Shown here one piece after another: positions 7,264 to 20,051 of a DNA stretch of 20,051 nt; positions within the stretch are counted from its first letter, which is position 1, and every line of letters begins with the position of its first letter. Below the pieces are notes generated by a model. The model was given only the letters and a program-made list of their open reading frames with translations, was not told where the DNA came from and searched no databases. This DNA is from a virus. Both the position numbers and the translations under genes were made by a program. The stretch covers positions 1,626 to 21,676 of IMG/VR virus record IMGVR_UViG_3300002231_000829. One strand, written 5' to 3'.

Positions 7264-8334
7264 ATGAATAAATTAGCTTCATTAACTTTGGATGTGGTTG
7301 ATCACATTATTAATGATGACTTAGAGAAATTAGCAGAAACAGTGCAAGATCTATCTGAAGATGCTAGAACAACTTATGTTCCATCATATGAGGAACGGGA
7401 AAGCATGGATGAATCTAATTTTGGTTTGATTCTATGGCATCCCAATTTAGGTAAATTCAATAAATTTGCTACAGATAGCTCTGGTTTAGTCGAAATTAAT
7501 ATGGCGCTACTAGCTTCTAAAATGAAAGATTTACCTGATGAAATAATTAAAATTGCCGCAGCTAATTTAACTTGTGCTGCTAAAAACTTTGGAGTACAAA
7601 TACCTAAAGATCTAGAAAAATTTGCTTCTACAGAGTATGTATATAATACATTAGATATTAGAACTATAGATGAAGCAAAATTTATTGTAAAAACTTCTGA
7701 AATAGAAGAGCCCAAAACATACGCTGTCTTGGGCGATAATAAGTATCCGTTAGACAATAAAAAAGACATATTAAAAGCAGCTACATATTTCAAAAAGCAC
7801 CACAATAAATTTAGTCCTTTAGCGAAACTTGCTTTTGCTTTAGATGTTGTAAACGCTGCTAAAAATAATGATATTGCTATCAGTAAATCTGAAGTTGAAA
7901 AATACGCATCTATTAATACAGATGAATTTAATGTAGATTTAAAAGATCATATAGCTGTTAGACAATCATATTTAAAAGATGATGAATCTGACATTTTCGA
8001 AATATATGATGAACTTTTGGAGAAATCTGCAGAGCTAGGGCCTAATAGAACAGCTTCTGCTTTATATGAACTAGATAAGAAGTTGGGTTTAACTGATAGT
8101 TATGGAAAAGGTATAGAAGATTCTATAATATCAGTTTTCGCTTTAACGAAAGAAGCTGGCACAGATATAGATGGACATTTTGTTACAAATAACCAATTAA
8201 AAAACATACCTAGTGGTGAGTTAACGGCAATCGTAGGTAACGACGTTATACCAGAGCTCAAGGGAGAAGAAGGTTTAGAAGTATTAGCTTCGCTTCCCCG
8301 TCCCATTAGACAGGAGGTTTTAGATTTAATATAA
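7264..8334 (+). CDS. Uncharacterised phage protein (356 aa), helix-rich
   Basis: ATG 7264 has AAGGAG at 7247-7252. The protein is acidic, mostly predicted alpha-helical, with no signal peptide, membrane segment or Cys-based motif. Several short recurring helix starts of the type 'LEKFAS', 'VEKYAS' and 'LEKSAE' suggest internal helical repeats. The segment GLILWHPNLGKFNKFAT (about 54-70) is distinctive. It overlaps the next gene by one base (TAATG), so the two are probably translationally coupled. I cannot assign a family. Its position among virion genes makes a structural or internal virion protein the best guess. Confidence 0.75.
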   Translation: MNKLASLTLDVVDHIINDDLEKLAETVQDLSEDARTTYVPSYEERESMDESNFGLILWHPNLGKFNKFATDSSGLVEINMALLASKMKDLPDEIIKIAAANLTCAAKNFGVQIPKDLEKFASTEYVYNTLDIRTIDEAKFIVKTSEIEEPKTYAVLGDNKYPLDNKKDILKAATYFKKHHNKFSPLAKLAFALDVVNAAKNNDIAISKSEVEKYASINTDEFNVDLKDHIAVRQSYLKDDESDIFEIYDELLEKSAELGPNRTASALYELDKKLGLTDSYGKGIEDSIISVFALTKEAGTDIDGHFVTNNQLKNIPSGELTAIVGNDVIPELKGEEGLEVLASLPRPIRQEVLDLI

Positions 8335-8711
8335 TGAAAAATGAGTTTGCAAAATGGCTTACACTGATGTTGATAGTAACTGCATTTTTAGTATTAGTTG
8401 TATCCATTGGCAGTTCTTTTAATATTTTCATTGGAATTGTTGGTTATAAATTAGAAGTTTGGGTGTTTTTATTAATATTTTTAGCTTATGTATTAGTAAT
8501 AGCGTTTAAGAAGAATGAAATAAAAATAGAAATACCAGAGAAAGCTATTAAAGTTTTTGTGGATGTTGTAAAAGAAGAACAATCATTTACACAAGCTTCT
8601 TTAGCTATTAATAAAAAGAAAATACAAAATAAAATTGACATAGATAAAGTTAAGCCGTGGAAAGATGTTGATGTTGGAGAAATCTTTCTTGATGGAGAAG
8701 AGGTAAGTTGA
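8334..8711 (+). CDS. Two-TM membrane protein (125 aa), holin-like candidate
   Basis: Two hydrophobic segments at residues about 9-27 and 41-58 are separated by a short loop. A soluble charged tail of about 65 residues follows, containing a Lys-rich helix and a basic-acidic end (DVDVGEIFLDGEEVS). The hairpin topology, short length and proximity to an amidase suggest a holin or a holin-regulating protein, but no family motif proves it. The start overlaps the preceding stop by one base (TAATG at 8332-8336), and the stop overlaps the TTG start of the endonuclease (TTGA, 8708-8711). The gene is thus inside a tightly coupled run. Confidence 0.7.
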   Translation: MKNEFAKWLTLMLIVTAFLVLVVSIGSSFNIFIGIVGYKLEVWVFLLIFLAYVLVIAFKKNEIKIEIPEKAIKVFVDVVKEEQSFTQASLAINKKKIQNKIDIDKVKPWKDVDVGEIFLDGEEVS

Positions 8712-9292
8712 GAAAAGTTATAATATACAGAATAGTCTTTCCAAATGGAAAGAGTTATATTGGACAAACTATTCAGCCTCTTAACAGAAGAATAAATAGG
8801 CATCGTTCAAACTCCGCAAATAAAAGTTGTAGAATGTACAATATCCCAGTTTATAATGCTATTAGAAAGTATGGCTGGAAATCTTTAATTATAAATATAT
8901 TATGTAAAGTTTCTAAAGATAAGGCCAATAAGAGAGAAACCTTTTATATAGAAAAGTTTGGGTCTTTGATTGAAAATAGAGGTTATAACTGTATTTTAGA
9001 GTGGCCCGACAAAAGAAAAGAAATGTCTAAGGAAACTAGACAAAAAATGTCTGAAATACAAAGGACAAGTGAAAAATGTAAAGCTCATCTTAAAAAATTA
9101 CATGAGTCTAGAAAAGGTAAAAAAGCGCAAAATAGAAAGAAATGTGCCTGTTACGATGCGGATGGCGCATTAATTAAGCGATATGATTGTATGATGGATG
9201 CAAAAAAGGATGGACATGTTATGTCAGCTATCTCTAGATGTTGCAAGGGTAAACAAAAAACGCATCATAAACTAACCTGGAAATTAACATGA
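8708..9292 (+). CDS. Free-standing GIY-YIG homing endonuclease with NUMOD-type DNA-binding tail
   Basis: The N-terminal nuclease domain shows a variant GIY element (I5-I6-Y7 in KVIIYRI), the YIG element (Y17-I18-G19 in GKSYIGQT), an Arg/His helix with R27-R28 and H32, catalytic E77 in RETFYIEKFGS, and N94 in RGYN. The linker (about 106-140, SKETRQKMSEIQRTSEKCKA and onwards) is NUMOD3-like. The C-terminus (about 143-194, ending in SRCCKGKQKTHHKLTWKL) resembles the NUMOD1/helix-turn-helix modules that read DNA in such enzymes. The start must be TTG 8708, since the frame offers no closer ATG; AGAGG at 8699-8703 supports it. The gene overlaps its neighbours by 4 nt at both ends. Such seg-like enzymes spread themselves by cutting related phage DNA near their own locus. 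No intron borders are visible. Confidence 0.9.
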   Translation: MRKVIIYRIVFPNGKSYIGQTIQPLNRRINRHRSNSANKSCRMYNIPVYNAIRKYGWKSLIINILCKVSKDKANKRETFYIEKFGSLIENRGYNCILEWPDKRKEMSKETRQKMSEIQRTSEKCKAHLKKLHESRKGKKAQNRKKCACYDADGALIKRYDCMMDAKKDGHVMSAISRCCKGKQKTHHKLTWKLT

Positions 9293-11223
9293 GCGCTGCA
9301 ATTGATTGTGGTACAGGTAATTTTGTTGCTATAGATGGTGACGGAATTAGAATACAGAGAAACGCATTTCTTACAATTGATAGAAGTGTTACAACTACAA
9401 AACAACTTAAAAAAATGAAAGTTCCTTTTGTAGATATGGACAATAGGCTTCATATCGTGGGATCAAAAGCTTATGAATATGCACAAGTTTTTGGTACTAA
9501 AGATCTTAAGAGACCTATGCGTCAGGGATTATTAAATCCTGAAGAACAGGATGCTTTACCTATTCTTCGTTTAATTGTAGGCGGGTTATTAAAAGAACCT
9601 GCAACTAAAGGAGAGAAAGTAGTTTATTGCGTACCTGCTAAACCTATAGATGCGGAAAGAGAAACGGACTATCATGAAGATGTTTTAAAACAAATAATAG
9701 ATAGTTTTGGTTATGATTCTAGAGCTATAAATGAAGGGCTAGCTTTAGGAAATGCTGGTTTAGAAGAGGATGATTTAACGGGTATAGCTATAAGTATGGG
9801 GGCTGGTATGTGTTTAAAGGGAGATACTGTTATACCATTATTAGATGGTAGGAAATTAACAATACAAGAATTAGCAGAATCTAGTGAAAAAAGTTTTTGG
9901 GTTTATTCTTGTAAAAAAGATGGCCAAATAGTACCAGGGAAAGCTTATAATGCTCATAAAGTTAAAACCACGACAAAGTTATTAAAAATTAAATTAGATA
10001 ATAATGAGTATTTAGAATGTACTCCAGATCATAAAATAATGCTTAGAAATGGAAATTTTGTAGAAGCGCAAAATCTAAATATAGGTTCTTCTCTTATGCC
10101 ATTATACGTGTATGAAGAAAAAACTGGCTATAAACAGATAAAAAATAATAAAACAGGGATGTGGAATGCTGAACATAGGTTTTTATACAAAAATTATAAT
10201 AATGAAAATTTAGATAAATCAGACATTGTCCATCATAAAGATTTCAATAAGAGAAATAATAATCCAGATAATTTAGTAAAAATGGCCAATGCTGAGCATT
10301 CCCAACTTCATACTGAGTTAGCTAATGGTGCCAAAGAAAGACTTACAGGTAAAACTCTGGAAGAGCTTTATGGGGAAGATAAAGCTCGAAAAATAAAAAA
10401 GACAAGTTCAGATACTATGAAGAAATCTTGGAAAGAAAAAAAAATAAAATCTAAACCTATAACAAAAGATAATTTAAAAAAATGTCAAGAAAATGGTTTT
10501 GGAACTTATGAAAGAACTACAGAACACTTGAAAAACATATCTGATACATTGTACCAAAAAGGACAAATTCCATGGAATAAAGGTATGTCTGGTAAAGACT
10601 ATAAAAAACATTTTAGCAATGGATTTTCAAACCAGATTGGTACTGGGTTTAACCATAAAGTTATTTCTATAGAAACAATAAATCATGAGGTTGATGTATA
10701 TGATATGACTGTTGATGAATATCATAACTTTGCTATAGATTCTGGTATTTTTGTACATAATTGTAACGTAGCTATTATGTATATGGGAATGAGTGCATTA
10801 CAATTCTCTGTACAACAATCTGGAGATTGGGTAGATAAGAATGTTTCACGAGACTGCGGTATACCTGTAGCTAAAGCTCAATATATTAAAGAATCTGGGG
10901 ATTACACTATTGACCCTAAATCAACAGAAGAAAGAACTAGAGAGCAAAACGCTATTAAAAGTTACTATGAAGCTCTTATTAGGTATTTATTAGCTAATAT
11001 ATCTTCACAGTTTGAAAGTAAAGAAATGCCCAATTTTCCTAGTGAAGTTCCTATCGTAATAGGTGGTGGATCATCTATGGTTAATGGTTTTATTGAAGTA
11101 TTTAAAGCGCAATTTACACAAAAGAATTTCCCATTAAAAATATCAGAAATCAGATTAGTGGAAGAACCTTTAACGGCAGTAGCGCGTGGTTGTTTAATTG
11201 AAGCTAAATTAGAGGATGAATAG
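9289..11223 (+). CDS. Actin-like ATPase (ParM/MreB-type fold) interrupted by an intein
   Basis: After removal of residues 175-491 the product is 327 aa, normal for a bacterial or phage actin. The phosphate-1 loop is A4-I-D-C-G-T-G-N11. The phosphate-2 loop is ISMGAGM|CNVAIMYMG, rebuilt across the splice point. The adenosine-binding GGGSSM lies at 592-597 of the precursor. Phage actins form filaments that position or segregate DNA, or organise replication and virion assembly; which applies here cannot be told. The gene starts in an ATGA overlap with the endonuclease upstream. Because the intein splits the nucleotide-binding site, the unspliced protein should be inactive. A ParM-like plasmid-type partner gene or centromere repeat array is not seen nearby. 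Confidence 0.85.
   Translation: MSAAIDCGTGNFVAIDGDGIRIQRNAFLTIDRSVTTTKQLKKMKVPFVDMDNRLHIVGSKAYEYAQVFGTKDLKRPMRQGLLNPEEQDALPILRLIVGGLLKEPATKGEKVVYCVPAKPIDAERETDYHEDVLKQIIDSFGYDSRAINEGLALGNAGLEEDDLTGIAISMGAGMCLKGDTVIPLLDGRKLTIQELAESSEKSFWVYSCKKDGQIVPGKAYNAHKVKTTTKLLKIKLDNNEYLECTPDHKIMLRNGNFVEAQNLNIGSSLMPLYVYEEKTGYKQIKNNKTGMWNAEHRFLYKNYNNENLDKSDIVHHKDFNKRNNNPDNLVKMANAEHSQLHTELANGAKERLTGKTLEELYGEDKARKIKKTSSDTMKKSWKEKKIKSKPITKDNLKKCQENGFGTYERTTEHLKNISDTLYQKGQIPWNKGMSGKDYKKHFSNGFSNQIGTGFNHKVISIETINHEVDVYDMTVDEYHNFAIDSGIFVHNCNVAIMYMGMSALQFSVQQSGDWVDKNVSRDCGIPVAKAQYIKESGDYTIDPKSTEERTREQNAIKSYYEALIRYLLANISSQFESKEMPNFPSEVPIVIGGGSSMVNGFIEVFKAQFTQKNFPLKISEIRLVEEPLTAVARGCLIEAKLEDE
9811..10761 (+). mobile_element. 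Intein with HNH homing endonuclease (317 aa) in the actin-like gene
   Basis: Block A starts with Cys1 (CLKGDTVIPLLDG, precursor residue 175). Block B is YLECTPDHKIM with T245 and H248. The C-terminal blocks F and G are VDVYDMTVDEYHNFAIDS and GIFVHN, ending His-Asn, followed by Cys+1 (residue 492). All residues for class 1 splicing are therefore present. The inserted nuclease is HNH type: IVHHKDFNKRNNNPDNL, with H315-H316, N323-N324 and N328. A GQIPWNKGMSGKD NUMOD3-like segment follows. The insertion point is the phosphate-2 loop of the actin fold, a highly conserved site that inteins favour. Confidence 0.93.
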
Positions 11224-11296
11224 ATGAATTTTACAAATGAAATTATAAAGGTAGCTATATTTACATTTACTTTAAAAAGTAAAATAAAAAAAATTA

Positions 11297-11590
11297 ATGT
11301 TTAAAAATTACACAGAGGCAGACTTAGAGAACGCAATAAAAGCCTTTAAAGATTCTAATAGTAAACTACAAGGGGCAAAATTTTTAACTAATTTGTCAAC
11401 TGGCGTTGGAATTACTACTGGATTGGTAGCTGATACTATAGTTTTATCTATTATTTTAGGTATAGTTGGTTATGGACTTATGTCAGATGTAAGAGATAAG
11501 GCTATAAATAAGTTAAATGAAGAACTTCATAAATATAATTTACATTATGATACTGGATTAAAAAAAATTGTGAAAGTTACAGGAATTTGA
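11297..11590 (+). CDS. Small membrane protein (97 aa), unknown
   Basis: ATG 11297 to TGA 11590. A charged N-terminal helix (residues 7-27) is followed by a hydrophobic, Gly-rich stretch at 33-62 (VGITTGLVADTIVLSIILGI core), which could form one long or two short membrane helices. A basic amphipathic C-terminus with HKYNLHYDTGLKKI follows. No ribosome binding site is evident; the leader is A-rich. The 73 bases between the actin-like gene and this one are almost all A/T and hold only a weak AT-only inverted repeat. The protein might be a second holin-like or envelope protein; no family is recognised. Confidence 0.6.
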   Translation: MFKNYTEADLENAIKAFKDSNSKLQGAKFLTNLSTGVGITTGLVADTIVLSIILGIVGYGLMSDVRDKAINKLNEELHKYNLHYDTGLKKIVKVTGI

Positions 11591-11642
11591 CTTTAGTGTA
11601 ATTAAAGAGGAAGACTTGCAATAACTAAACCATTAACATACA

Positions 11643-11930
11643 ATGAGATTTTTCAAATGGTTAAAAGAAAAGACAAATTTCCATTGGCAAAATTTAAATG
11701 AAATATCAACACGTTATAACATATGTTATTCGGGGATTAGATACGGAAGATGTTGGTTTAGTCTATATAAGCTGAGGTTTTGTATTGAGTGCCTATTATC
11801 AGCGGCATGTCATGCTAATGTTGAAATTGGCGGAGAGTACGGAGAAAGTGATTTAAAAATAGGATTAGCTTTTTCTCCTGTATCATTTTGGTTTACTATC
11901 GAAGAGGGGCTATTTCCAATAAAAATATAA
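11643..11930 (+). CDS. N-terminal fragment of a conserved phage protein, frame broken (95 aa)
   Basis: The product begins MRFFKWLKEKTNFHW and contains CECL/CHANVEIGGEYGESDLKIGLAFSPVSFWFTIEEG-type beta-rich sequence, then stops at TAA 11928-11930, right after the five-A run 11921-11925. The -1 frame at that point continues as NLKKYHGLKTSISVHNG and reads on as a sensible protein to 12100. From memory, phages carry a single protein family in which this N-terminal part, the tryptophan-rich middle and the 'PATV..TWKR' part encoded next are joined. Here they are in pieces. Function of the family is unknown; it travels with portal-proximal genes. Alternative reading: separate small proteins. There is no ribosome binding site close to ATG 11643. 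Confidence 0.55.
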   Translation: MRFFKWLKEKTNFHWQNLNEISTRYNICYSGIRYGRCWFSLYKLRFCIECLLSAACHANVEIGGEYGESDLKIGLAFSPVSFWFTIEEGLFPIKI

Positions 11931-12100
11931 ACCTAAAAAAGTACCATGGACTAAAAACCTCTATTTCAGTGCATAATGGAACTTTATGGTGGGATATTTG
12001 GCAAGACGGCATGTGTTGGAGTAATAAAACTCCAAAATGGAAAATCGGAAGTTTTGGTTTCACTGATTTTATATTAGGAAAGTCTGTTTATAATAAATAA
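11888..12100 (+). CDS. Middle fragment of the same conserved phage protein (70 aa), tryptophan-rich
   Basis: The frame is open from ATG 11888, but that ATG is probably not a real start because it lies inside the coding sequence of the upstream fragment. The meaningful part begins near 11930. It contains SISVHNGTLWWDIWQDGMCW and KWKIGSFGFTDFILGKS, a Trp-rich block I associate with the middle of a longer phage protein. It ends at TAA 12098-12100. The frame continues beyond that stop without another stop as ILDIKEVNIPLIEGYYP into the next fragment, so the TAA appears to interrupt a once-continuous gene. It is either degenerate, recoded, or a sequence error. Confidence 0.5.
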   Translation: MVYYRRGAISNKNINLKKYHGLKTSISVHNGTLWWDIWQDGMCWSNKTPKWKIGSFGFTDFILGKSVYNK

Positions 12101-12130
12101 ATACTTGATATTAAGGAAGTAAATATTCCG

Positions 12131-12499
12131 TTGATAGAAGGATATTATCCAGCTACTATAGAAATGAGTCTTGCTACATGGAAAAGAAAAAGATGGTCAT
12201 TTACACAAAAAGCTGTGAGGGCAGAGGTTACTCCAAAAGAAGAGGTGTACATTCCTGGTAAGGGGACATGTGCTCATAACTGTGGGCCAGACGCAACCTT
12301 CAGTTCTACATTTCCAGCTAATAATATAAGAGAAGCAATAACAAAGTTTACACATGACATAATAGATACACGTCTTAAACGTGGCGGAGATCTTATGCCA
12401 CCTGAAGGTGAAGATAGGTCATGTAAATATCCTATACCACAAAAACCCATTGATACAGAACTTATAAAAAGTCAAATGGAGAAGAGGGCTAAAAAATGA
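12131..12499 (+). CDS. C-terminal fragment of the same conserved phage protein (122 aa)
   Basis: This is in the same frame as the middle fragment, separated from it only by TAA 12098-12100 and ten sense codons. Translation as a separate protein would start at TTG 12131, for which AAGGAAG (12113-12119) is an acceptable site at 11 nt. Key segments are EGYYPATIEMSLATWKRKRW, VYIPGKGTCAHNCGPDATFS and REAITKFTHDIIDTRLKRGG. This PGKG...NCG.DA pattern matches the C-terminal half of the phage family described for the fragments upstream (recollection). Molecular function is unknown. The stop overlaps the ATG of the next small gene (ATGA, 12496-12499). Confidence 0.65.
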   Translation: MIEGYYPATIEMSLATWKRKRWSFTQKAVRAEVTPKEEVYIPGKGTCAHNCGPDATFSSTFPANNIREAITKFTHDIIDTRLKRGGDLMPPEGEDRSCKYPIPQKPIDTELIKSQMEKRAKK

Positions 12500-12645
12500 G
12501 CAAACAAAAAAAGATCTTTTCTAGGCTGATAGATTTAATAAAGCATATTTTGAAATTAAAAAAGCTTATAGCTGAAAATGCAGAGTTAAAGGCATGGGTA
12601 AAAAACTTTCAAGTTAAGATAAAAAAACTTTTTTCACGCAAATAA
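12496..12645 (+). CDS. Very small basic coiled-coil protein (49 aa)
   Basis: ATG 12496 overlaps the upstream stop by 4 nt (ATGA), and the frame ends at TAA 12643-12645. The product is strongly basic with regularly spaced Leu/Ile (SRLIDLIKHILKLKKLIAEN), so an amphipathic helix or short leucine zipper is expected. It ends in KKLFSRK. Tight coupling to the upstream frame and codon use like its neighbours favour a real gene, but it is short and no family is recognised. Confidence 0.5.
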   Translation: MSKQKKIFSRLIDLIKHILKLKKLIAENAELKAWVKNFQVKIKKLFSRK

Positions 12646-12660
12646 TGGGATTCTATTTAA

Positions 12661-13149
12661 ATGAGCATTTTAAAAGTATCTTTAGAAGACTACACTAAGT
12701 ATAAATATAAAAAAGATTTATTTAATCCTAGGCAAGAGAAGCTTATTAAAAAAAAGTTCAAGAGATATTCTAAAGATTTAGAATCAGGAAAAGGTGTTAG
12801 AATTGGGAATTTGGACAGAGTTTTAATACCAAAAAAAGATCTATCTGCAAAGGAATTAACTAAAGGTTTAGGGTTTTTACCAACAAGAATAGCTGTACCT
12901 GAAAGTGGTCAAACTAAGTTTAGAACTTTTAGACATCCTCACAGTAAACACCATATACACTCCCATAGGAAGTATTGGACAATGCATAAAGACGAACATA
13001 CATCATATACAACTATGGGTTGGGCTAAAAAACTTAAAAAGAATCCATCTATGAAAAAATATGAAGCTGGATTACCAAGCACTGTGGATAGAAACACAAC
13101 AAAAGCGTCTAGTACTGTTGAAGCTTTTGCAAAGGGGAATGAAGCATAA
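12661..13149 (+). CDS. Conserved phage protein with His-rich centre, C-terminus shifted out of frame (162 aa)
   Basis: ATG 12661 to TAA 13149. After a Lys-rich N-terminal helix region, the centre (residues 88-113, FRTFRHPHSKHHIHSHRKYW followed by TMHKDEH) packs eight His into 22 residues (92, 94, 97, 98, 100, 102, 109, 113), which could bind a metal. In phages I recall this 'HIHxHxxxWTxHxDxH' family continuing with an 'EGxPGxxxYxK' tail. That tail is present here but in the +1 frame (IVEGVPGWVSYLKNRYLNK, from 13139 on), so the family protein seems to be interrupted at AAGGGGAATG, 13132-13141. A portal-adjacent structural or assembly role is inferred from position alone. Confidence 0.65.
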   Translation: MSILKVSLEDYTKYKYKKDLFNPRQEKLIKKKFKRYSKDLESGKGVRIGNLDRVLIPKKDLSAKELTKGLGFLPTRIAVPESGQTKFRTFRHPHSKHHIHSHRKYWTMHKDEHTSYTTMGWAKKLKKNPSMKKYEAGLPSTVDRNTTKASSTVEAFAKGNEA

Positions 13150-13261
13150 TATAGTAGAAGGTGTTCCTGGGTGGGTGTCTTATCTTAAGAATAGATATCT
13201 TAATAAAAATAGAACTGGCACAGTCAGTAAAATAAAAAAAGAAGTTAGAGAAGAGAAATAA
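13139..13261 (+). CDS. Out-of-frame C-terminal piece of the His-rich protein (40 aa), or small separate ORF
   Basis: ATG 13139 overlaps the last 11 nt of the His-rich gene. The product starts MKHNIVEGVPGWVSYLKN and ends in a basic tail. Skipping one base in GGGGAA (13134-13139) joins it seamlessly to the upstream protein as ...AFAKG-MKHNIVEG.... An AAAGGGGA stretch lies just before the ATG but is too close to be a normal ribosome binding site. It is best read as the lost C-terminus of the upstream gene, produced by +1 frameshifting, coupled restart, or not at all. Confidence 0.5.
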   Translation: MKHNIVEGVPGWVSYLKNRYLNKNRTGTVSKIKKEVREEK

Positions 13262-13262
13262 A

Positions 13263-13761: not shown

Positions 13762-16758
13762 ATGCCGGCTACTCCTGTACTAGAGGATACATTATCACAG
13801 ACTGAACGAAATAAGTTGGCTTACCCAGATCCATTCTTTGATCTGGCACGCAACTATATTCCAAAAAATATAAAAACTCTGTTTAAATTCTGCAGAACAT
13901 TTTTTTATACTACAGGGTTTCTTCGTAATGTCGTAACTAAGTTAACAGAATACCCTGTTACAGATATTCTGTATGATGACACAATAGACGCTGAAGCTAG
14001 AAAAAAGTGGGATACTGCGTTACATAGGAAATTAAAAATAAAAAGTTTTTTAATAGAGATTGGTCTTGACTTCTTTATATATGGGAATGCACTTATTTCA
14101 ATATATATGAAGCCCACTAGATTTTTAAAGTGCACAACATGTAAAGAAGAGCATCCAATTGATAATGTTAAATACAAATTAGAGAAATTTAAGTTTAAAG
14201 GCACTTGTCCATCATGTAAAGGAAAGGGTGTAGTTTTTTCCATCAAAGACACGTATTTAAAAACTATTGACAATTTTAAGTTTGTCAGATGGGCTCCTGA
14301 AAATATTGATATTGATTATAATCCATTAACTGGTACATCAATTTATTATTATACAATTCCATCAAAAATTAAGGCAGCAATAATAGCGGGGAATCAAGCT
14401 ATTATTAGAGAAGTGCCTGCTTTATTTTTAGAATCACTTGAAAAGAAAAAAAGAATAGAACTTGACCCAAAGAATCTTTTTCATTTTAAAAGGCCAACAT
14501 TAGCAGAAGATGATATGGGTTGGGGCAAGCCAATAATTTTGCCAGCTCTAAAAGAGATATACTATTTGCAAACATTAAGACGTGGAAATGAAGCTATTGC
14601 AAATGACCATGTTATTCCAAAAAAGAGCATCTATCCTGCTAATACTACTACACTTGATCCTTATTCTGTAGTACCTTATACAACGGTATTAACTAACAAT
14701 GGCATAAAGGAATTACAACATGTGGATTTTAAGAAAGATAAATTGTATTCCTACAATAGGGAAGAAACAGATGTCATTGATTGGAAATTAAGAGAAATAG
14801 AGGATTGGGATTACTTAGTAAAAGTAACTGCTGCCAAACAACCCGCATTTCCAATAAAAGTTAACTCTGTTCACCCTTTTAGGGTTTGGGTGCCTAGTCA
14901 GAAAGAACATAGTTGGAAAATGGCCAAGAGCCTATCTGTAGATGATTACTTAGCGTATCCAGTACCAATTTTAAAGGAAGGCACAGGTTGTATTCAAATG
15001 ATAGATACAGAAGAACTGCTAAAGGAAATTGAGTTTGGTTCTTGTTCAAATAGCATAACTACTAAAATATCCACTAATGAACGTTTTTTTAGATTTATAG
15101 GATTATTTATATCTGAAGGGTATTTGCATCAGACAGGAAGAGTAACTTTTACATTTAATAGTAACGAAACAGACTTACATAAATTTGTAGCTGACTATTT
15201 AAACGAATTAGCTCCGAATTGTAAAGATGCCTCAACATATACAAATGGTACTGTAACACAGGTTACCAAATGCTCTATAAAGTTGAAAATGTTGCTAGAA
15301 AAGTTAGTTGGTAACTTGAGTGATAAAAAGCATCTCACATACTTTAGAAATAAAATAGATAAAACACAACTATTGGCTTTGTTGCAAGGATTATACGAAG
15401 GAGATGGGTGTTTTAGATACTCAAAAAATCATGGAAATGCTAAATATCCTAAAATAACACTCCAATTAGCAAATTTAGATATTTCTTATTTTGTTTGGGA
15501 ACATTTACTGTGTTTTGGTCTATGCTCTTCCATAGCTACCTACAAAAAAGGAAGTTACAAAAGAACATGGACTAATGATTTGACTGGCAAGCCTGCTGAG
15601 ACTTTAGCAATAATGTTAAACATAATTGATAAATTTACTTATGCTACGGAAAGTTTAAATTCAACATATTTCTTCCATGACGATTTTGTGTATACTAAAG
15701 TAAACTCTATTAAAAAAATTAAGGAACGTATGGTTTTAAGTATCGAGGTAGACAATAATACACATTCATACTTAACCTTAGCTAAGTCTAATAAAAACAC
15801 GCAGATGAACCTTGGAAAGTGGAAGGGGCAAATAGAGGCCCAAATAAAAAAATGGAAATATGATCCTAATCACATAGGTGTTTTCCCCATACCAATAGGG
15901 TATCAAGAATTAGGTGGAAATGCTAGAACTTTGCTTTTAACACCTGAAATGAAATTCATTGAAGAATCTATTATTAATTCTTTAGGTGTACCTGTAGAAT
16001 TTGTAAAAGGTGGAACTACTTGGACAGGATCGAGTATTTCGCTTAGGATAGTGGAAAACCATTTTTTAACATATAGAGAATTGCTGTTAGATTTTTTAAA
16101 CTATTTTGTAGTGCCAGGTCTTGTTAGCAGATTAAAGTACTCACCAACGAAGCTAAAGTTTAAAAAATTCAAGATGTCAGATGATATACAAGCTAAGAAT
16201 CTTGTAATACAGCTAGGAGAGCAAGGTAAAATTTCTGATGCTAAACTATTAGATGAATTTGGTTTTGATGCAGAAGAAGAGCAAGAGGCTTTAAAAAGAT
16301 CCAGGTCTACCAGATTTGATGAACAAGTCGCTATGCAGGAGGCTACAGCCGAAGCACAGGGACGTGGAGCTGTTATATTAGCCAAGTATCAGGCAAGGGC
16401 ACAAGCTATCGCGGCGCATGAAAATCTTATAATAGAAACTGAGTTACTTCAAGATGAGCTTGCAAGAGAAAATAATGGCATAACTGATGATCCTGTTAAA
16501 GTTGTTGAAGAGTATGCATTAAAAATTTTAGCTATGACACCAGCACAACAAAATAAAACTTTAAATTCAATGGCAAAAACCATGCCAATAACGTATTCAT
16601 TGGTTGTTAGACGTATACAAGCAAAACAATTAGAACAAGCCCAACAACAAGCTTTTATAGAACAATCCTTTGAACCACAGAGTGCTCCAGAGAAAAAGAA
16701 AAGCACATCACCTGCTAAAAAGGAAAAAACAAAAGGTCAAACTGTGGGTGAACCTTAA
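13762..16758 (+). CDS. Portal protein interrupted by an intein, with Zn-ribbon insertion
   Basis: The precursor is 998 aa, and 620 aa after removal of residues 302-679. The extein looks like a phage portal (dodecameric head-tail connector and DNA channel). It has an N-terminal helix region (FFDLARNYIPKNIKTLFKFC), the wing/stem with WAPENIDIDYN, then IYPANTTTLDPY|TQMNLGKW across the splice point. GYQELGGNARTLLLTPEM and SIINSLGVPVEFVKGGTTWTG follow, typical of the portal clip region. C124, C127, C149 and C152 (CTTC...CPSC) form a probable Zn ribbon in the N-terminal part, an uncommon addition. The last 200 residues are helical and charged, ending in a Lys-rich tail. GAGG at 13746-13749 precedes ATG 13762. 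Terminase genes were not found in the window. The sulfotransferase-like gene overlaps its stop by one base. Confidence 0.85.
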   Translation: MPATPVLEDTLSQTERNKLAYPDPFFDLARNYIPKNIKTLFKFCRTFFYTTGFLRNVVTKLTEYPVTDILYDDTIDAEARKKWDTALHRKLKIKSFLIEIGLDFFIYGNALISIYMKPTRFLKCTTCKEEHPIDNVKYKLEKFKFKGTCPSCKGKGVVFSIKDTYLKTIDNFKFVRWAPENIDIDYNPLTGTSIYYYTIPSKIKAAIIAGNQAIIREVPALFLESLEKKKRIELDPKNLFHFKRPTLAEDDMGWGKPIILPALKEIYYLQTLRRGNEAIANDHVIPKKSIYPANTTTLDPYSVVPYTTVLTNNGIKELQHVDFKKDKLYSYNREETDVIDWKLREIEDWDYLVKVTAAKQPAFPIKVNSVHPFRVWVPSQKEHSWKMAKSLSVDDYLAYPVPILKEGTGCIQMIDTEELLKEIEFGSCSNSITTKISTNERFFRFIGLFISEGYLHQTGRVTFTFNSNETDLHKFVADYLNELAPNCKDASTYTNGTVTQVTKCSIKLKMLLEKLVGNLSDKKHLTYFRNKIDKTQLLALLQGLYEGDGCFRYSKNHGNAKYPKITLQLANLDISYFVWEHLLCFGLCSSIATYKKGSYKRTWTNDLTGKPAETLAIMLNIIDKFTYATESLNSTYFFHDDFVYTKVNSIKKIKERMVLSIEVDNNTHSYLTLAKSNKNTQMNLGKWKGQIEAQIKKWKYDPNHIGVFPIPIGYQELGGNARTLLLTPEMKFIEESIINSLGVPVEFVKGGTTWTGSSISLRIVENHFLTYRELLLDFLNYFVVPGLVSRLKYSPTKLKFKKFKMSDDIQAKNLVIQLGEQGKISDAKLLDEFGFDAEEEQEALKRSRSTRFDEQVAMQEATAEAQGRGAVILAKYQARAQAIAAHENLIIETELLQDELARENNGITDDPVKVVEEYALKILAMTPAQQNKTLNSMAKTMPITYSLVVRRIQAKQLEQAQQQAFIEQSFEPQSAPEKKKSTSPAKKEKTKGQTVGEP
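14665..15798 (+). mobile_element. Intein with LAGLIDADG endonuclease (378 aa) in the portal gene
   Basis: Block A begins with Ser1 (SVVPYTTVLTNNGIKE, residue 302). Block B is FPIKVNSVHPFRVW with H371. The LAGLIDADG helices are RFIGLFISEGY (444-454, acidic E452) and LLQGLYEGDGCF (540-551, acidic D548), so the nuclease looks intact. Blocks F and G are VLSIEVDNNTHSYLTLAKSN then KN|T: terminal Asn679 followed by Thr+1, with Lys rather than His before the Asn. Ser1/Thr+1 with a non-His penultimate residue is a less common but workable set. Borders were chosen so that the extein reads LDPY-TQMNLGKW. Confidence 0.9.
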
Positions 16759-17853: not shown

Positions 17854-20051
17854 CTATTTAAGAACTTCTCTAAAAATCTTACTCAACATTTCTACTTTAT
17901 CTTTCCATAAAAAGTTGGCCTTCACATTAAGAATACAAGATTGATCTATTATTTTTTCATTAGGCGATTCTTTCCATTTCTTATACTCTATCTCTAAAGC
18001 TTCTGTCATTTTCCAAACATCGACTACAGGTCGCAAATGACCATTATCCATAGCTTGATTCATTACAGCACTATTCGCAATCAAATGACCAGTGTCTCTT
18101 AACATCTCTGGAACTGCGGAATTTGCTGGAGCAATGCTGGGAGTTCCAGCAGCTGCTGCTTCTATTAGAGACAATCCACAGTTATGACTAGTGACTTGTC
18201 CAATATTATAGGATTCTCCATCTGGGACTTCTAAATCATACCCTATGCCATAAGGCTTTACATTTTCAATTGCTCTTATTTGTATATTTACACAACCGTC
18301 ATTTATATCGTACTTGCGAGTAATTTGGCCTTTTTTTATATCAGCTTCGTTATCTTCATAGTAAGTAACAGTATATATATTTCCGGAGCTATATCCTCTG
18401 GAGTTATCTTCAAGTCTAATTGAAAATACTTTATTTAGTGTTAAACCCAAATCTCTAACTAAATAGGCTAATTTCTTTGATACTGTTTTATATCTGGTAA
18501 AAGTATTTTTTTTACTAACATCCCCATCTCCTTCAATCAATCCTTGAAGTAAGCTTTCTCTGCAATCTTTCTCTAAATACAAAAACCATAGTGGGAACTT
18601 TTTATTGTGAGCATTATTTCCAAATAAATCTTCAAATAGTTTACTCAATGGGGCTCCATTTAATTGAATAGCTCCTGATGCGTCTTTCTTTGATTTTACG
18701 AATTTTGGGCATTTATAACTATTATGTATATTTATTTTATTTGAATAACAATCTATCACAAATTTATGTAAATCAATTTCTTTGTTATGAAAAGAAAAAC
18801 TAATACCAGAACTATTTTTTGATCCTTCAGCTATATATAATCCAAAAAGTCTACATAAGTCTTTATCAATATTTAAATATCTTGGTAATTTACATTTTGC
18901 TTTACTTTGTTTTGATTCAACGTAAGTATCTGTTATAGTGTAATATTTTGGATTTGCATATAATTTTAAGTCTATTTTATCAGTATTTCCTACATTATAT
19001 TCAGAATACCTTGGAATTTTTAATGATAAAACATCATTTAAACTAAGTTTATCAGCTCTTTTATATTCACCAGATTGAGTTAAGAATGGGTGATCATGAG
19101 AACAAATTATAGGTTCTGCAAATTTCCAGAGTTTAATAGAATACATGTCTTCTGTAAATTTAGTGGCTTGTGTTTTATTTACTTTAGTAAAATAACCTTT
19201 ATCATTAATGACCTCGTCTTCTTCTGATATTTCCTCAATATACTTATAACCTTGTTTTGTTAGTATTAGAGTGCCCTCTAAAAGCTTACCTTCCCCTAAA
19301 GTAGAAGATATATTAATGTTAGAAACATTATATATGTCATTAACTACTTCATTTGAAACAGCGCCACCGTATATATTACTGGCATTTACACCAATTATTG
19401 TGTTTACATCATTGTCTTGAAAGCCGGCATTTAATAAATGGTTTTGCAATAAATTAGATCTGCCCGGTCCCATACAAGGCTCATTAGCCATCATATGGAG
19501 ATACAAAAAAACATCTTTTTTGTCATGGATTACCACATTGACTATATGTTCCTTGGGACAAGGATTTAAATCACAAGATGTTCTATCTAGTGGCATGCGA
19601 TTTCCACATTTACATTCTTTGTAACCTTTTGCAAACATGCTAAAGGCTCTAACAGACAGAGGAATTGCTTTTCTAGGCTGAAATCTGTTTAAATTTGTTA
19701 CTACAAATTTCCGTTTCCATCCGAAGTTTTCTTTTTTCTCAAGAATTTCCTTATATTTTAAAGGGCGGTATACTTTAGTATCTACACCATGATATAACTT
19801 ATGCATATTCTTAATATTAGGAAACCTGTCTTGTACGACTTTGATAGCCCAATCAGAATAAGTTATAACACTATCAGCTATTTTAAATACATTTTCCCAC
19901 GCTTGACTAAATGGTTGACCATCTACAGGAAAATAAATAACTATTTTTGATGTTGGTGGAAGCACTGCTCTAACTTTATCTATTATGTCAGAGATATGAA
20001 ATATATCCTGAAACAAAAACACAATATCTGGCTGTTCGCGTTTTAGTAAAG
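17854..20051 (-). CDS. GT4-type glycosyltransferase interrupted by an intein, 5' truncated
   Basis: The frame is open to the right edge (LLKREQPDIVFLFQD upstream of the GTG at 20022), so the start is outside the window. The extein (residues 1-245 and 615-722 counted from 20022) has GT-B/GT4 landmarks: YHGVDTKVYRP (77-87), VVTNLNRFQPRKAIPLSVRA (107-126, nucleotide-sugar domain start) and STLGEG|CGLSLIEAAAAGTP, the conserved 'GEGxGLxxxEAxAxG' donor-binding stretch containing the catalytic Glu. C137, C139, C150 and C155 form a Cys cluster inserted in the C-terminal Rossmann domain, possibly a Zn site. The likely role is transfer of a sugar from a nucleotide donor to DNA, protein or surface glycan; the acceptor is unknown. 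Transcription converges on the plus-strand genes. Confidence 0.85.
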   Translation of the reverse strand, partial: LLKREQPDIVFLFQDIFHISDIIDKVRAVLPPTSKIVIYFPVDGQPFSQAWENVFKIADSVITYSDWAIKVVQDRFPNIKNMHKLYHGVDTKVYRPLKYKEILEKKENFGWKRKFVVTNLNRFQPRKAIPLSVRAFSMFAKGYKECKCGNRMPLDRTSCDLNPCPKEHIVNVVIHDKKDVFLYLHMMANEPCMGPGRSNLLQNHLLNAGFQDNDVNTIIGVNASNIYGGAVSNEVVNDIYNVSNINISSTLGEGKLLEGTLILTKQGYKYIEEISEEDEVINDKGYFTKVNKTQATKFTEDMYSIKLWKFAEPIICSHDHPFLTQSGEYKRADKLSLNDVLSLKIPRYSEYNVGNTDKIDLKLYANPKYYTITDTYVESKQSKAKCKLPRYLNIDKDLCRLFGLYIAEGSKNSSGISFSFHNKEIDLHKFVIDCYSNKINIHNSYKCPKFVKSKKDASGAIQLNGAPLSKLFEDLFGNNAHNKKFPLWFLYLEKDCRESLLQGLIEGDGDVSKKNTFTRYKTVSKKLAYLVRDLGLTLNKVFSIRLEDNSRGYSSGNIYTVTYYEDNEADIKKGQITRKYDINDGCVNIQIRAIENVKPYGIGYDLEVPDGESYNIGQVTSHNCGLSLIEAAAAGTPSIAPANSAVPEMLRDTGHLIANSAVMNQAMDNGHLRPVVDVWKMTEALEIEYKKWKESPNEKIIDQSCILNVKANFLWKDKVEMLSKIFREVLK
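18181..19287 (-). mobile_element. Intein with LAGLIDADG endonuclease (369 aa) in the glycosyltransferase gene; first residue atypical
   Basis: Residues 246-614 (numbering from 20022). Block A reads KLLEGTLILTKQGYKYIEEI, so position 1 is Lys246 where Cys or Ser is expected. Block B is ICSHDHPFLT with H311. LAGLIDADG helices are RLFGLYIAEG (391-400, E399) and LLQGLIEGDG (491-500, D499). Blocks F and G are IGYDLEVPDGESYNIG and VTSHN, ending His613-Asn614 before Cys+1 (615). The borders rejoin the GT motif as GEG-CGLSL. All but residue 1 are canonical, so C-terminal cleavage should work while N-terminal cleavage is doubtful. Confidence 0.88.

Follow-up and report, generated by a model that had tools for sequence, protein, structure and literature searches.

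The window analysed here, a stretch of 20,051 nucleotides from an IMG/VR virus record of 26,209 bases, raises at positions 11643-12499 the question of whether a series of open stretches in different reading frames represents one gene that has been broken, several genes, one gene expressed by recoding, or an error in the sequence. Frame 0 is open from ATG 11643 to TAA 11928-11930, closing right past a run of five adenines (A5), and frame 2 downstream runs for ~170 nt to TAA 12098-12100 and then on in the same frame to TGA 12497-12499, i.e., the interruption by TAA with same-frame continuation that the first-pass annotation had described is found again when the frames are read. The features of the locus are as follows:

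11643-11922, plus strand: piece 1, the N-terminal part, in frame 0 (the frame whose codons begin at positions divisible by 3), with a nominal ORF of 11643-11930
11921-11925, plus strand: the A5 run, at or adjoining the probable first frame change, which leads from frame 0 into frame 1
11923-11970, plus strand: bridging segment KYKPKKVPWTKNLYFS, in frame 1, open between TAA 11920 and TAA 11974
11960-12097, plus strand: piece 2, the middle part (SISVHNGTLWWDIW...ILGKSVYNK), in frame 2
12098-12100, plus strand: in-frame TAA standing between the middle part and the C-terminal domain, aligned to residue E137 of the homologue from phage BM15
12101-12499, plus strand: piece 3, the C-terminal domain (EGYYPAT...ATWKRKRW...PGKG...DATF), in frame 2, with its TGA end at 12497-12499
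12113-12133, plus strand: weak candidate restart, consisting of AAGGAAG (12113-12119) and, at a spacing of 11 nt, TTG (12131-12133)
12496-12645, plus strand: a 49-aa ORF, its ATG and the TGA of piece 3 overlapping as ATGA

The proposal that all of the pieces are members of a single phage family is borne out by profile searches. Piece 3 matches phrog_20814 on its own (E 8.9e-12, positions 148-239 of 250), and the joined translation, whose comparison with phage proteins had been suggested as a check, matches the same family over profile positions 45-239 both when it is joined by one shift (E 1.6e-14, 55.1 bits) and when it is joined by two (E 5e-18, 66.6 bits). Searching all six frames of the record for the family also gave a phrog_20814 match that runs through one TAA. 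Piece 1, where the family match starts at about 11817, carries almost no family signal in isolation (0.4-1.8 bits) and counts only when it is placed within the joined reading. The family reference, Bacillus phage BM15 gp170 (ALO79591.1), is a single gene of 250 aa that crosses both junctions and is 37.8% identical to piece 3 over 90 aa; ten further loci of the BM15 clade were found in the viral collection, every one of them matching over all 250 residues, and distant relatives of ~250 aa occur as single ORFs in the jumbo phages Salmonella SA002, Erwinia SNUABM_37, Klebsiella Eowyn and Proteus phage 10. Homologues that span the junctions therefore exist, as the idea of one protein requires. In the two-shift reading the locus is colinear with phrog_20814 over both the N-terminal and the C-terminal parts, but it does not offer the single uninterrupted frame of ~250 codons, which two frame changes and a TAA interrupt. 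Judged from its sequence, 11643-12499 is a broken relative of phrog_20814 and not a working member of the family.

Other searches contributed little to the characterization of the family. The pieces had no match in Pfam, the intact phrog_20814 homologues had no relative in NCBIfam or PDB, and a literature search returned nothing that bears on the family. Single-protein scans of viral and genome contigs gave no closer relatives of the pieces, and an alignment-based search (alignment A1) retrieved the BM15 clade only. The structure prediction for the BM15 clade had a mean pLDDT of 32, too low to be of use.

The first break had been described as a single -1 shift at A5. The observation that frame 0 ends just after A5 and that the -1 frame carries on with protein-like sequence holds, but the comparison with the family points to two shifts rather than one. 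Frame 1 from 11923 (KYKPKKVPWTKNLYFSA) aligns without gaps to residues 79-95 of the BM15 protein (KWKYKHLPVTRNYGISA) with 8 identities in 17 positions and a BLOSUM score of 35, compared to 10 for the best placement in frame 2; among 1,888 windows taken elsewhere in the contig, none scored above 27 in the same comparison. A frameshift-aware alignment of BM15 gp170 with the DNA placed one shift at 11923 and another near 11960 when the penalty was between 12 and 25, and took a different path with three shifts when it was 10. With an HMM of the BM15 clade the two-shift reading scored 71.5 bits against 56.7 for one shift, a difference of 14.8 bits, and with the phrog_20814 profile two shifts exceeded one by 11.5 bits. 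A profile that is broader and more divergent, having been extended to the jumbo phages, did not discriminate between one and two shifts (55.3 against 56.1 bits), probably because the jumbo-phage proteins differ in the bridging stretch. When piece 1, the bridge or piece 2 was shuffled, the score with the BM15-clade HMM fell in 2,999 of 3,000 trials; the observed score was reached in none of 1,000 trials each for piece 1 and the bridge, and once in 1,000 for piece 2. The colinearity of frame 1 with the family from 11923 to about 11970 thus argues for two successive frame changes, and we consider it highly probable from these alignments that both go in the same direction (0 to 1 to 2, net -1) and lie about 40 nt apart, the position of the second being fixed only to within about 11957-11970.

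The genomic setting of the locus bears on how the breaks are to be understood. The gene is part of the following segment:

11224-13262, plus strand: accessory insert of ~2 kb between a volactin-like gene and gene 13263, containing four small ORFs in addition to the broken gene

The comparison set consisted of ten related loci that were obtained via the portal protein. The volactin-like gene and the homologue of gene 13263 are only about 7-15 nt apart in L027 and L028, while in L030-L035 the same gap measures several hundred nt and holds unrelated genes. A tblastn search of four insert proteins (11297, the broken gene, 12496 and 12661) against the ten portal-related loci gave no match, a search of the ten records for the phrog_20814 family gave none either in a first pass that may miss divergent copies, and gene 12661 had no relative in the viral contigs. 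The slot is a variable one, and the broken gene is part of its cargo.

Several features of the slot and of the adjoining genes are recorded here as observations in their own right. In four syntenic relatives the slot contains proteins with one mitochondrial carrier repeat (Mito_carr, PF00153), with E-values of 3e-6 to 2.7e-16, above the cut-off:

L031, 7062-7271: Mito_carr-repeat protein (PF00153)
L032, 2592-2981: Mito_carr-repeat protein (PF00153)
L033, 7151-7507: Mito_carr-repeat protein (PF00153)
L034, 6891-7499: Mito_carr-repeat protein (PF00153)

The slot of L035 appears by eye to have similar mitochondrial-carrier-like content. The protein from L032 had no match among 50,697 phage records, and a literature search yielded no phage report of such a mitochondrial-carrier-like protein. 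The volactin/actin-like gene itself (9289-11223; PF25216, E 2e-69) contains an intein that carries an HNH endonuclease; this intein is absent in most relatives, and L035 matches the gene over its full length including the intein. The portal gene (13762-16758) has an intein-like insert with a LAGLIDADG domain (PF14528), and the L027 portal is colinear without it; a glycosyltransferase gene on the minus strand (17854-20049) has an intein-like middle too. In L035 the portal homologue at about 7989-9875 seemingly falls into three open stretches (178, 131 and 251 aa), possibly on account of an intron, decay or an assembly fault. Outside the window, an ORF on the minus strand of L026 (record positions 21600-26209) has a YADD motif like that of reverse transcriptases and may encode the enzyme of a retron or DGR.

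Protein-like sequence persists through every break, and this is the observation that speaks for programmed recoding, in which frameshifting at A5 and stop readthrough would yield a full-length protein. One gene would, however, require two frameshifts and one TAA readthrough for this purpose, and the homologues need none. A canonical slippery heptamer (X_XXY_YYZ) was looked for in the zero frame at the break and none was found; the A-site part of the sequence that is present, ATA AAA ATA (A_AAA_ATA), cannot re-pair after a -1 slip, and AAAAAT occurs 72 times in the window against 70 expected. The RNA downstream folds no better than shuffled sequences (z-scores of -0.29 after A5 and -0.59 after the TAA), and 11 of the window's 18 other ORFs that were checked end in TAA, so this codon has not been reassigned. 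With slippery site, RNA structure and stop usage all against it, recoding, which the first-pass annotation had listed as an option, is rejected as extremely improbable. Another option was that of split subunits with a restart of translation, i.e., that piece 3 is still made from an internal start as a separate small protein and that the N-terminal part is either defunct or a subunit in its own right. The C-terminal domain does exist as a gene of its own, gp183 of Bacillus phage Troll (134 aa, phrog_3494), AAGGAAG lies upstream of TTG 12131, and gene 8708 of the window likewise begins with TTG. The coding log-odds of piece 3 (0.53 bits per codon) are normal and fit a domain that is still in use, whereas piece 1 has the lowest value among the segments tested (0.149 per codon, compared to 0.24-0.86 for the listed intact genes), and for this reason a surviving C-terminal product is worth keeping in view. 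The start at TTG 12131 does not correspond to that of the Troll protein, however: gp183 begins about 26 residues before the EG of its EGxY motif, while TTG 12131 lies only 2 residues before EG and would cost the domain its first strand (according to a low-confidence model), and the combination of an 11-nt spacing with a TTG codon is weak. There is no in-frame ATG, GTG or TTG between TAA 12098 and TTG 12131, and piece 3 does not match the phrog_3494 profile, so that it lacks both the family match and the start upstream of the first strand that would mark a stand-alone domain. The Troll neighbour gp182 shows by eye no resemblance to the N-terminal half, no natural three-piece split is known, and a separate piece 3 would leave the two upstream frame changes unaccounted for. 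We therefore regard this explanation as improbable, and it is a distinctly long shot that piece 3 has been kept as a new separate protein after the death of the N-terminal half, i.e., that the locus is midway through a reduction from gene to domain that parallels Troll gp183.

The two remaining options of the first-pass annotation, decay and local sequence error, are both retained, with decay preferred. Under the latter the real gene would be intact and a patch of low coverage or mixed strains would have introduced false indels and a stop. The contig is metagenomic and its record has lone Ns at positions 1360, 1363, 1620, 1625 and 21677, one break sits at a homopolymer, and an independent copy of the locus was not found among the data searched, where an exact 30-mer adjoining the break occurs in no other viral contig. 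Against this, the neighbouring genes with homologues in relatives (5986, 6721, 7264, 8334, 13263 and the exteins of the volactin and portal genes), about 8 kb in total, are free of frameshift or stop, which makes a generally error-prone assembly unlikely; with faults spread evenly over the window, three of them would fall in one gene of 857 bp with a probability of about 0.002; one of the lesions is a stop and not an indel; and the gene is accessory, where decay is expected. Local error is thus an unlikely explanation, if one to be taken seriously. Since a broken family gene is found here in an accessory insert that has no counterpart in the ten relatives compared, the explanation we consider most likely, and on balance probable, is that of a decaying, dispensable cargo gene. 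In the lineage of this phage, a single phrog_20814-family gene of about 280 codons would have been carried into the slot flanked by the volactin-like gene and gene 13263 and would since have acquired at least three inactivating lesions, namely a frame change at or adjoining A5, a second one between about 11957 and 11970, and TAA 12098-12100; all three fall within about 180 nt. As read, translation from ATG 11643 would give a 95-aa stub without the conserved C-terminal domain. From the sequence as it stands, the lesions are most likely real mutations and the gene is most likely no longer functional.

For annotation, 11643-12499 should be marked as one disrupted phrog_20814 gene and not as three proteins, and the locus is unsuitable to be cited as an example of frameshifting. 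Little general knowledge is gained from what is probably the decay of a passenger gene in the cargo slot of a phage. The slot is more interesting than the gene because relatives hold single-repeat mitochondrial-carrier-like proteins there.

Compared with known systems, the locus differs from Troll gp183 in that the latter starts from an ATG of its own, about 26 aa ahead of the EG motif, while piece 3 is without a matching start. The jumbo-phage proteins (SA002 ACSA002_0340, Eowyn 00316 and those of Proteus phage 10 and SNUABM_37) belong to the same family by PHROG profile or tblastn and are intact single ORFs, although they are only about 25% identical to the BM15 protein. With BM15 gp170 the locus shares the order of blocks NxxxGG...ExDL, GLxP, KxKxKxxPxTxN, EGxYxATI, ATWxRKR, PGKG and DATF at about 30% identity, the difference being that gp170 is one uninterrupted frame whereas in the window's copy two frame changes and a TAA break the frame.
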